DNA from: an uncultured Candidatus Saccharibacteria bacterium
GTDB lineage: Bacteria; Patescibacteriota; Saccharimonadia; Saccharimonadales; Saccharimonadaceae
Reading direction: 5' to 3'
DNA length: 34,253 nucleotides
Assembly: GCA_946500965.1 (NCBI GenBank)
Contig: CAMMXR010000002.1
Coordinates: 1 to 34,253 of the forward strand
Shown: piece after piece, positions 1,435 to 5,798 of the stretch
Layout of the letters: each line of letters begins with the position of its first letter
Numbering within the stretch: the stretch's first letter is position 1
Notes under the pieces: generated by a model
Seen by the model: only the letters and a program-made list of their open reading frames with translations
Database searches by the model: none
What the model was told of the DNA's origin: nothing
Position numbers and translations under genes: made by a program

Positions 1435-2673
1435 ATGAAAACTCGTCAACTTCCCATTCTGGGCGCAGTCGTAGCCTGTGCTGGTCTGGTTTTGTCGCTG
1501 GCGGTCCTCACGCCGACCACCTACGCCGATACCACAGCTCAGCCCGAAGTTAATGCTAAGGCCGAGACCGCAGCCGACGCTGACACTACCGCTAACCCCG
1601 AAGCCACGACCAGCTCCGACCTCCCCGACCCAACTTTCTCAGTTGAAGTGGACCAGCAAAACGACATCGCTAGTTTCTGGTTCGGCTCTAATCTATTCGC
1701 CTTCGGCAACCTCCTAGAACTTGGCGACGCCACCGACGCCGGGCTGCTTCTGGCCGCCGGCAGCGAGCTGAACCTCGGCGCCACCTCAGATTATGGCTTC
1801 GTAGCCGGCGTCGCCGTCAATTATACCGGCACTACCAGCCACGACCTCTTTATCCTAGCTAGCAACATTGAACTTGACTCCGCCGCCCATATCGGTGGTG
1901 ACGTCTATGCTGCCGGTAACGTTATGACCGTCGCCGCCGACCTGCCTAGTGATCTCTCCGTGGCCGCCGCCGAACTTACCTTGCGCGACGTCACCATCGC
2001 CGGCAACCTCAATCTCTCCGTTGACCGCCTCAACTTTGAGGGCGACGTCAAGATCCACGGTACGCTTAACTACAACGCGGACGCCGTGCTCTCTGGAGAC
2101 TACGATGCCGCCGCCACTTCCACCTACGAGGTGATTGAGCCCAGTCCCGCCGCCGTCATTGCTGCCACCATCTACTCCAAGCTGCTCAGCATCGCTGGCC
2201 TCTTCATCACTACCATCGTCTTCCTCGCCCTCTTCCCTTCACTCTATCAACAACTGGTCGCGAAATCCACCACTCAGAGATTCGGTTTCCATCTCACCGC
2301 CGGCCTGGTCGCACTGGTAGCAGTCCCGCTGGTTAGCCTCTTTGCCTTCTGCACTATTGCCGCCGCCCCGCTCGCCGTCATCGTGATGGTCGCTTACGCC
2401 ATCCTCGTCTACCTCGCACAAGGTATCACCGGCACCTGGCTCGGCCACCTCATCACCGCCCAGCTCTTCAAGCGCCCCGCCAACCGCTTCATTGAAGCCC
2501 TCGTCGGCATCGTCCTTCTCGGCCTGGTTTCGTTAATTCCGTTCCTCGGCTGGATTACCGGCTTCCTCGCGCTGCTCTTTGGACTTGGCTTCATCGCGCA
2601 GGCTGGCTTCCTCCGCCACTTCAAGAACCTCAAATCCGCTTCGCCGGCTAAATCCGCCAAAGCTGCCAAATAA
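1435..2673 (+). CDS. Signal-peptide, bactofilin-like beta-helix, multi-TM membrane protein
   Basis: ORF track starts at 1375 inside the TM2 gene; internal ATG 1435 gives MKTRQLPILGAVVACAGLVLSLAVLTPTTYA signal-like start; central repeat-like DLFILASNIELDSAAHIGGDVYAAGNVMTVAADL region; four or so C-terminal TM helices. Confidence 0.65.
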   Translation: MKTRQLPILGAVVACAGLVLSLAVLTPTTYADTTAQPEVNAKAETAADADTTANPEATTSSDLPDPTFSVEVDQQNDIASFWFGSNLFAFGNLLELGDATDAGLLLAAGSELNLGATSDYGFVAGVAVNYTGTTSHDLFILASNIELDSAAHIGGDVYAAGNVMTVAADLPSDLSVAAAELTLRDVTIAGNLNLSVDRLNFEGDVKIHGTLNYNADAVLSGDYDAAATSTYEVIEPSPAAVIAATIYSKLLSIAGLFITTIVFLALFPSLYQQLVAKSTTQRFGFHLTAGLVALVAVPLVSLFAFCTIAAAPLAVIVMVAYAILVYLAQGITGTWLGHLITAQLFKRPANRFIEALVGIVLLGLVSLIPFLGWITGFLALLFGLGFIAQAGFLRHFKNLKSASPAKSAKAAK

Positions 2674-3320
2674 TGCACCCTAGTTGGAAACCTTTTCTCC
2701 AGTCCGAGTTCGCTAAGCCCTATTTCCAAGAGCTCAGCGCCTTCCTGCACGAAGCTTATGCCACCAAGACGATTTTTCCGCCCAAGGCCCAGGTCTTCCG
2801 CGCCTTCACCACCGACCTCAGCGCCGTCAAGGTCGTCATCCTGGGCCAGGACCCCTATCACACGCCAGGTGCCGCTCACGGCTTGGCCTTCTCGGTCCCA
2901 GATTCGCAGCCAATTCCGCCTTCGCTCGCCAACATCTATCGTGAGATTGACGCCGAATATGGTCACCACGCCAATCCCACCGGCAATCTCACGAACTGGC
3001 AGCGCCAGGGCGTGTTGTTGCTTAATAACGTCCTCACCGTTGAGGCCCACCGCGCCGGTTCTCACCGCGGTCACGGCTGGGAAAGCTTTACTGAAGCCGT
3101 GATTCGCTATCTCAGCGACCAGCGACCGCATCTCGTCTTTCTGCTCTGGGGTCGTGACGCTCGCAGCAAGAAACCCCTGATTGACGCCTCTCGCCATCTG
3201 ATTCTGGAGTCGCCGCACCCCTCGCCGCTCTCAGCCCATAGCGGCTTTTTCGGCAACAATCACTTCCGCCTGGCCAACCAGTTTCTGGAACAGCACGACC
3301 TCGCGCCAATAGAATGGTAG
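2673..3320 (+). CDS. ung: Uracil-DNA glycosylase, family 1
   Basis: VVILGQDPYHTPGAAHGLAFSV, GVLLLNNVLTVE, HPSPLSAHSGFFGNNHF motifs; TAATG overlap with upstream gene. Confidence 0.95.
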   Translation: MHPSWKPFLQSEFAKPYFQELSAFLHEAYATKTIFPPKAQVFRAFTTDLSAVKVVILGQDPYHTPGAAHGLAFSVPDSQPIPPSLANIYREIDAEYGHHANPTGNLTNWQRQGVLLLNNVLTVEAHRAGSHRGHGWESFTEAVIRYLSDQRPHLVFLLWGRDARSKKPLIDASRHLILESPHPSPLSAHSGFFGNNHFRLANQFLEQHDLAPIEW

Positions 3321-3420: not shown

Positions 3421-5541
3421 ATGAGATTATTACGACCGTTTCCAACACCATCCCGCCGTCGCTCTGATGGCACACCCGCTTCATCCCGCCGTCCCAACCG
3501 CGCCCGAACCCGATCTCGTCGCCACGACCGCTCACGGCGTCTCCAACTCTCACCCCTTTTTGCGTCCAGCCTGCTGGTAATTAACATGCTCTTTTCTAGT
3601 GTCACCCCACCTCCTCGTGCGAACGCTAGCAGCTGTGACGACCTCAAGATTATCTTCGCCCGCGGCTCCGGCGAACCGCTGGGTGGCAGCAGTGCCGCCG
3701 CCTGGCAGCGCGAGTTAGACGCCCAACTCCAGTCCAGCCAGCTCTCCTATAGTTTCTACGAACTCGGCAGCGCACCCCAGGCGGGCGCCCAGTATCCGGC
3801 CGTCGCAATTTCCGGCTCAACGGATGGAGTCCTCACTATGTTAGGCGCGCTGTTTAGCGCTGGCTCTGCCTATGACTTTGGCGATAGTGTCGCTGCCGGC
3901 GTGCGCGAGCTCCAATCCTACATCTCCACCGTCAGCGCCGCCTGCCCCGAGACCAAGTTCATCCTCGGCGGTTACTCGCAGGGCGCCATGGTTATCTCGC
4001 GCACTCTCCCTGACCTCAACCCGGAGCAGATTATTTATACCGCCACCTTCGGCGACCCCAAGCTCTATCTCCCCGAAGGCGCCGGTCTCCCCTCGGCCGC
4101 CTGTCTTGGTCGGGCCTATTCCAGCTACCGTGCTTACGTCCCCGATTGTCAAGCCTATCTCGGCGTTCTCGGCGGTTATCAGCCCTACGAACCAGTCGGC
4201 TTTACCGGTAAGCTCGGCACCTGGTGCAACCAAGATGACATTATGTGTAGCTCTGGCTGGAGCCTAGCCGACCACTCCGCCTACGTCTCTGAGAATCTTT
4301 ACTATGACGCCGCCGTCAAGATTCGCGCTGCCGTGCGTTCAGCCTATCCTGATGCCTGGGCGACGCCTGCCGCCACTTCCACGCACGATCTTGCCATTCT
4401 TTTAGACACGACCAGCTCTATGCAAAATATGATTGACATTTATCGCTCCGAAGCCGAACGTCTCGCGGACCAGGTTTACGCCAGCGGCGGTCGCGTCGCC
4501 CTCTTTGAATTTCGTGACCTCCAGTTTGACGGCGCACCCGTAGAGCGCTGCGGTTTTGAGTGTAGTCGCAGCGAATTTCTCCAGACCCTCGCCACGATTG
4601 AAGTGGATGGCGGCGGCGATGCGCCGGAGTCCGTTCTTTCCGCCTCGCTCTTCGCCATGAATACCCTCAAATGGCGCCCCAACGTCACCAAGACTATCGT
4701 TCTCTTGACTGATTCCGGCTATCTCTCTCCCGACCGCGACGGTACCACCTTAGCCGAGGTCGTCCAGCGCAGCTTGGAAATTGATCCGGTCAACTTCTAT
4801 ATTATTACGACAAGCGGGTTTATTGGCAGGAACTATACCGACCTGGCTGAACTTACCGGCGGTCGCGTCGCCCAACTTGATGACCGCGTCTCTATCACCG
4901 ACGCTATCGTTAATCGTCCCACCGTGGCGCTGACGGCACCCACCTACGCTGGCCGAGTTGGCTACCAATTCTATTTCGCGGTTAATAGTCCTAGTTCTGA
5001 CCTGCGTTACGATTGGGACCTGGACGGCGACGGGCAGTTTGAGATCACTGATACCCCCGCCGTTCTCCACGCCTACTCCACGGCTTTCACCGGCTTCATC
5101 CAAGTCCGCGCCACCGACGCCGCCGGACTTAGCAGTACCATGTCAGCCGCCGTCACCGTCACCACCGCTACCGAACCCGCCGCTGTCATCACTTCCGCCA
5201 CCGCTCAGCTGGGTGCCGGCTCTGCCACGGTCAACTTCTCCACCATGCATACAGCTAAACTACTCATAGCGTTGGACGACGCCGTGCTGGGCTTCCTTGA
5301 CCCGTCCCTTCACTCCGCCTTCACGCTGACCGACATTGAGACCGGCTCCGTCCTGACCCTAGTCCCCTATAACGCCGCCGGTCAGCGGGGAACCAGCGTC
5401 ACGCTCAAACTCGGCGACGCCAAATCTTCTACTGATAGCTTATCGCCCGACCCCGCCGCCTCCGATCACCCAACCACCTCTCCCTCACTCACCCCCAAGG
5501 CCCCCAACGCTGGCGCTCCGCCTCGTCACACCAACCTTTGA
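3421..5541 (+). CDS. Secreted cutinase-like serine hydrolase with vWA and PKD-like domains
   Basis: R-rich N-region plus hydrophobic segment; cutinase-like IFARGSGEP, GYSQG nucleophile elbow, CNQDDIMC...ADHSAY Asp/His; vWA-like DLAILLDTTSSM...; PKD-like YDWDLDGDGQFEITDTPAVLHAYSTAFTGFIQVRATDAAG. Confidence 0.85.
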   Translation: MRLLRPFPTPSRRRSDGTPASSRRPNRARTRSRRHDRSRRLQLSPLFASSLLVINMLFSSVTPPPRANASSCDDLKIIFARGSGEPLGGSSAAAWQRELDAQLQSSQLSYSFYELGSAPQAGAQYPAVAISGSTDGVLTMLGALFSAGSAYDFGDSVAAGVRELQSYISTVSAACPETKFILGGYSQGAMVISRTLPDLNPEQIIYTATFGDPKLYLPEGAGLPSAACLGRAYSSYRAYVPDCQAYLGVLGGYQPYEPVGFTGKLGTWCNQDDIMCSSGWSLADHSAYVSENLYYDAAVKIRAAVRSAYPDAWATPAATSTHDLAILLDTTSSMQNMIDIYRSEAERLADQVYASGGRVALFEFRDLQFDGAPVERCGFECSRSEFLQTLATIEVDGGGDAPESVLSASLFAMNTLKWRPNVTKTIVLLTDSGYLSPDRDGTTLAEVVQRSLEIDPVNFYIITTSGFIGRNYTDLAELTGGRVAQLDDRVSITDAIVNRPTVALTAPTYAGRVGYQFYFAVNSPSSDLRYDWDLDGDGQFEITDTPAVLHAYSTAFTGFIQVRATDAAGLSSTMSAAVTVTTATEPAAVITSATAQLGAGSATVNFSTMHTAKLLIALDDAVLGFLDPSLHSAFTLTDIETGSVLTLVPYNAAGQRGTSVTLKLGDAKSSTDSLSPDPAASDHPTTSPSLTPKAPNAGAPPRHTNL

Positions 5542-5591: not shown

Positions 5592-5798
5592 CTAGTCGCC
5601 GCTCGCCCGATGTGAACTCAAATGCCAATGCTCCCCATACTCACACTTATATACACTCAATTTCGGTCCGCCGTGGTCGTGCTGCGCCACCAGCGCCGCC
5701 GCCTCCGCTTCCTCACGCGTGGCATAACAAACCTTCTGCTGGTCACCCACCCAGCATTTTGGCGGCACATATTCATAGCGCGACCTATAGTTTTTCAT
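5592..5798 (-). CDS. Small conserved hypothetical with C-terminal YKCEYGEHWHL motif
   Basis: 68 aa; EEAEAAALVAQHDHGGPKLSVYKCEYGEHWHLSS; own TATAAT at 5805-5810 (minus strand). Confidence 0.75.
   Translation of the reverse strand: MKNYRSRYEYVPPKCWVGDQQKVCYATREEAEAAALVAQHDHGGPKLSVYKCEYGEHWHLSSHRASGD

Follow-up and report, generated by a model that had tools for sequence, protein, structure and literature searches.

The Cutinase/CE5 family includes the Fusarium solani cutinase (1cus), the mycobacterial Culp proteins and the phage LysB enzymes, which have in common a GYSQG nucleophile motif, catalytic Asp and His residues and a Ser and a Gln in the oxyanion hole. Relatives in this family are active on lipids of the mycobacterial envelope, LysB being a mycolylarabinogalactan esterase (PMC7246905). 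Proteins handled by sortases carry, in the textbook form of the sorting signal, a hydrophobic domain and a charged tail after the sortase motif (PMC12004944). CPR bacteria, including Saccharibacteria, were reported to lack membrane-lipid synthesis (PMC10939385). A search of the open-access literature by titles and abstracts found no paper on a cutinase in Saccharibacteria and none on tailless sortase substrates.

The window, a stretch of 34,253 nucleotides (contig CAMMXR010000002.1, assembly GCA_946500965.1), belongs to a 735-kb Saccharibacteria metagenome-assembled genome in 65 contigs, which contains a single cutinase gene (Table 1). Its product was initially annotated as a secreted cutinase-like hydrolase fused to VWA and PKD-like modules. 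The profile search bears out the cutinase half, Pfam Cutinase scoring 76 bits (cut-off 25.9), as well as the VWA domain (VWA_4, 36.6 bits against 27), and the motifs FARGSG, GGYSQG, CNQDDIMC and DTTSSM are all present. The PKD-like domain scores below its own cut-off (17.7 against 23.5 bits), but its core, YDWDLDGDG, is invariant save for one residue in a six-sequence alignment of long-form relatives, and an Arthrobacter homologue exceeds the PKD cut-off. Secretion is supported by an N-terminal hydrophobic segment, which is the same in relatives with shorter N-termini. A second beta domain, FN3-like by eye, is retained even in short family members without PKD. Of 88 distinct relatives, only 66 have a recognisable regular MIDAS motif, hence metal-dependent adhesion may not be general.

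Table 1. Features of the cutinase locus, in window coordinates.
Feature	Position	Strand	Basis
Uracil-DNA glycosylase family protein, upstream neighbour	2673..3320	+	Pfam UDG; near the cutinase gene in 34/43 loci
Secreted cutinase-VWA-PKD-beta-domain protein, 706 aa	3421..5541	+	ORF, Pfam, full-length Saccharibacteria relatives
Probable signal peptide, residues 1-70 (Arg-rich n-region, hydrophobic segment, A-x-A-like end PRANA/SS)	3421..3630	+	Sequence inspection
Cutinase domain, residues 71-292	3631..4296	+	PF01083, E 4.6e-21; own-genome match 3631-4296; fold matches
Ser83 of FARGSG, oxyanion-hole position	3667..3669	+	98% conserved, 83 relatives
GYSQG: predicted nucleophile Ser186 (codon 3976-3978) and second oxyanion residue Gln187	3970..3984	+	S186 and Q187 100% conserved
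CNQDDIMC: predicted catalytic Asp273 (codon 4237-4239), flanked by Cys269 and Cys276	4225..4248	+	D273 and C276 100%, C269 99% conserved
Predicted catalytic His285 codon	4273..4275	+	100% conserved
VWA domain, residues 324-455 (MIDAS DTTSS; GGGDAPES)	4390..4785	+	VWA_4 match; integrin-beta and VWA domains among structural matches
PKD-like domain, residues 516-574 (YDWDLDGDG)	4966..5142	+	PKD below cut-off; core conserved; homologue over cut-off
Second beta-sandwich-like domain, residues ~585-665	5173..5415	+	Strands in model; conserved in relatives
C-terminal PKAPNAG, followed by 8 residues and no TM	5494..5514	+	Variant of genus consensus [ILV]PK[AV]PNTG[RK][KR]
Small convergent ORF, 68 aa, downstream	5592..5798	-	Conserved in 33/43 loci

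The conservation of individual residues points to a cutinase-type active site. Among 83 aligned relatives, S186, D273, H285, Q187, C72 and C175 are fully conserved, and the cysteines, including C269/C276 and an extra pair, C228/C243, are 98-100% conserved. The initial annotation had placed both the Asp and the His between conserved cysteines, which is correct for Asp273, between Cys269 and Cys276, while His285 lies 9 residues past Cys276. When the cutinase domain was modelled by itself, its 50 best PDB matches were all cutinases or cutinase-like esterases (best 1cux, E 3.1e-7). Confidence in the model is low across residues 217-284, the stretch holding Asp273, so that the geometry of the triad is backed by conservation and not by the model. 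An AlphaFold2 model of the protein (six sequences) reached a mean pLDDT of 66.7, and its structural matches are integrin-beta and VWA domains. Judging from its sequence, the protein is predicted to be a catalytically active serine esterase of the cutinase family.

The gene was found in 164 of the 173 genomes of the genus (about 95%, by our own count), in 59 of the 221 remaining genomes of the family and in 11 of 384 genomes across the phylum. The named full-length relatives belong to Candidatus Saccharibacteria metagenome-assembled genomes and to two genomes termed Nomurabacteria, which seem to belong to the same family as the window genome. The enzyme could be an ordinary scavenging esterase, active on environmental polymers or lipids such as cutin-like polyesters and acetylated glycans and with no role toward a bacterial host. 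Cutinase/CE5 enzymes attack many esters, and the PDB sequence matches are chiefly acetylxylan esterases and cutinases from fungi, mycobacterial cutinase-like proteins ranking lower. However, a gene kept by most of a genus with very small genomes, its adhesive modules and its weak sequence relatives, which include mycobacteriophage and Gordonia-phage LysB and mycobacterial Culp proteins including Culp6, all fit envelope lipids better, if weakly, and we regard scavenging as improbable.

In the gene tree, the sequences of the genus form one clade (99/91), sister to those of a second genus, g8 (96/94). The recurrence of the uracil-DNA glycosylase neighbour, together with an ORF resembling the same gene near the cutinase in g8 loci, makes vertical descent of the cutinase gene within the family probable. 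Three g8 cutinase genes (L160, L158 and L154) contain in-frame TGA codons where their relatives have Trp (for example SAEwRQF, VEYQwSV and QSVwSGV), and the genes adjoining them have no TGA well inside the frame. This may reflect readthrough, decoding as Trp or gene decay.

The most unusual part of the protein, overlooked in the initial annotation, is its conserved C-terminus, which resembles a sortase signal devoid of a tail. In 64 of 67 distinct complete proteins from the genus, P-x-[TAS]-G lies at most 18 aa from the end; 40 have the PNTG form and, in 40, the stop lies exactly 2 aa past the Gly, the positional consensus being [ILV]-P-K-[AV]-P-[ND]-T-G-[RK]-[KR]-COOH. The window copy, PKAPNAG followed by 8 residues, is thus an Ala variant of this consensus, with PNAG instead of PNTG, which counts against its reading as a sorting signal. 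P[ND][TAS]G occurs within 11 aa of the end in 56 of the 67 proteins, compared with 0.2 expected in shuffled sequences. No transmembrane helix was found in the last 70 aa of the cutinase proteins of the genus. A frameshifted or downstream-encoded transmembrane tail was considered and rejected, as no consistent hydrophobic frame follows the stop. In relatives from other genera, the protein terminates in LPSTG or LPATG followed by a transmembrane segment and a basic tail, or in a plain transmembrane tail; one g8 member ends bare, with VPSSGYQ.

Since textbook signals carry a hydrophobic domain and a charged tail, the bare motif could simply mean release. The tail would then have been lost and the esterase secreted freely into the medium, PKAPNTG being kept, unprocessed by sortase, as for instance a docking or export tag. 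Neither a transmembrane segment nor a charged tail follows the motif, and known systems need the classical tripartite signal for anchoring (PMC12004944). Two observations weigh against free secretion, which we consider the less likely outcome. The core of the motif is identical to the canonical sortase motif of these genomes, in which other secreted proteins of the genus end with [AV]PNTG, a linker, a transmembrane segment and a basic tail. In addition, bare and tailed endings replace one another in a single lipase family, an exchange not expected if the motif served something other than sorting. Of 118 genomes of the genus, 35 encode this secreted Lipase_3-type family (L217-L247), whose complete copies comprise 8 with bare and 18 with tailed PNTG endings, which alternate in the tree with about six changes. 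The PK extension was counted, by eye, in 7 of the 8 bare copies and in none of the 18 tailed ones (p 1.2e-5). In one lipase gene, L279, IPKVPNTG occurs internally as well as at the C-terminus, the internal copy separating an additional N-terminal module from the lipase.

Further proteins with tailless signals were sought by pattern searches only. At least four other, unrelated secreted proteins end bare (L271, L275, L276 and L285). Across 394 genomes of the family, PK[AV]PNTG was found at 82 sites, compared with a handful of matches to the reversed control. The genus accounts for 79 of the 82, and each of the other three is tailed. Immediately before PK, the bare cutinases mostly have I, V or L, and the seven tailed PK copies have A, S, T, P or G. 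A chance motif is excluded by the shuffles and the reversed-pattern control, and an assembly artefact because dozens of independent genomes share the tailless ending, which spans several gene families.

Sortases were present in all 12 genomes of the genus that were tested, with one to four each and three in G000. The sortases of the genus are of two types, of about 400 aa and about 235 aa. Conservation of the bare motif and its interchange with tailed endings favor a new class of signal over a sign of release. The genus may thus possess a second, tailless class of sortase-type signal, [ILV]-P-K-[AV]-P-N-T-G-[RK]-[KR]-COOH, borne by secreted lipolytic and other exported proteins. Its sortases would handle these as soluble substrates, dispensing with retention in the membrane, and might place enzymes on the host cell as well. 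We propose this class tentatively, at somewhat less than an even chance.

The kinship with actinobacterial proteins that had been suggested from the cutinase signature is supported by plasmid-borne homologues, and that actinobacteria carry the same architecture had likewise been overlooked. On the Arthrobacter sp. zg-Y1110 plasmid NZ_CP104273.1, an ORF encoding 831 aa (L248:4821-7316) has Cutinase, VWA_4 and PKD matches all over the Pfam cut-offs; the PLSDB gene table lists its C-terminal part alone, as a PKD protein (WP_231711996.1). Two Rhodococcus plasmid proteins named cutinase family proteins (WP_231783644.1 and WP_192378962.1) also combine cutinase, VWA_4 and PKD-type matches. An architecture unique to Saccharibacteria is ruled out by these homologues. 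In the tree, which samples few actinobacterial sequences, several of them on long branches, the Arthrobacter protein falls among the saccharibacterial ones (93/86), and the direction of transfer between the two groups can be read either way. A termite-gut Bifidobacteriaceae protein (L250) was found by eye to combine a GDSL/SGNH-type hydrolase lookalike with VWA, PKD, LAVTG and a transmembrane segment, the same design with another type of esterase.

The Arthrobacter protein ends with a complete actinobacterial sorting signal, LASTG followed by a transmembrane segment and RRRR, unlike the window protein. That an actinobacterium has the same protein in anchored form, and that a soluble sortase substrate need not remain on the cell that produced it, raises the idea that the released tailless enzyme is ligated onto the wall of the actinobacterial host or a neighboring cell by that cell's own sortase, the epibiont thereby putting an esterase on its host. 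We consider such anchoring in trans very improbable, as the motif fits the epibiont's own substrates ([AV]PNTG) and not LAXTG or LPXTG.

The reading that we favor, though we place it no higher than evenly balanced, is that of a secreted surface esterase displayed through a tailless sortase-type signal and probably acting on the lipids of an actinobacterial host. Cultured Saccharibacteria are epibionts on other bacteria, which makes plausible, for a genome of this phylum, the epibiont lifestyle on which the initial annotation had made its host-interaction role conditional. The enzyme would be secreted by the Sec pathway, its catalytic domain being carried on an adhesive stalk formed by a VWA domain with a metal site, the PKD domain and the second beta domain. 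After cleavage of the signal peptide, the C-terminal motif (PKAPNAG here, PKAPNTG in most relatives) would be read by the cell's own sortase. Recognition without a membrane helix or a charged tail would leave the enzyme displayed on, or linked at, the surface of the epibiont, and the VWA and PKD domains may keep it on the partner cell. The cutinase domain could then cleave lipid esters of the envelope, either phospholipids or, in hosts that bear them, mycolates, releasing fatty acids for the epibiont. Saccharibacteria are not known to make fatty acids. The sequences establish the domains, the conservation of the catalytic residues, the near-universal presence of the gene in the genus, the conserved tailless motif and the occurrence of canonical [AV]PNTG signals and sortases alongside it; catalysis, sortase processing of the tailless form, the location of the enzyme, its substrate and its benefit are inferred, and action on host envelope lipids is plausible. 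A nearly universal esterase of surface type that carries adhesive modules is a concrete candidate for the way in which episymbiotic Saccharibacteria acquire host lipids.

Compared with known systems, the window protein has its two family-type cysteine pairs at places matching those of Cutinase/CE5 enzymes, from which it differs by the extra conserved pair (228, 243), by insertion regions and by the fusion to VWA and PKD. It shares the second beta domain and the N-terminal hydrophobic segment with the Arthrobacter protein, to which it is 35% identical over the cutinase domain. The Rhodococcus proteins resemble it in domain content but have a more distant cutinase domain and different C-termini, and one PKD match is below the cut-off. 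The cutinase-adhesin is a new version of a known type, and the novelty lies in its tailless signal. Relative to tripartite LPXTG-type substrates, the motif core [AV]PNTG is identical to that of canonical substrates of the same genus, whereas the cutinases of the genus lack the hydrophobic helix and the charged tail, with [ILV]PK before the core, RK after it and then the stop. This ending contradicts the rule that a sorting signal needs a membrane helix and a charged tail, and tailless endings of this kind hint at an unrecognised route for placing enzymes at the cell surface.
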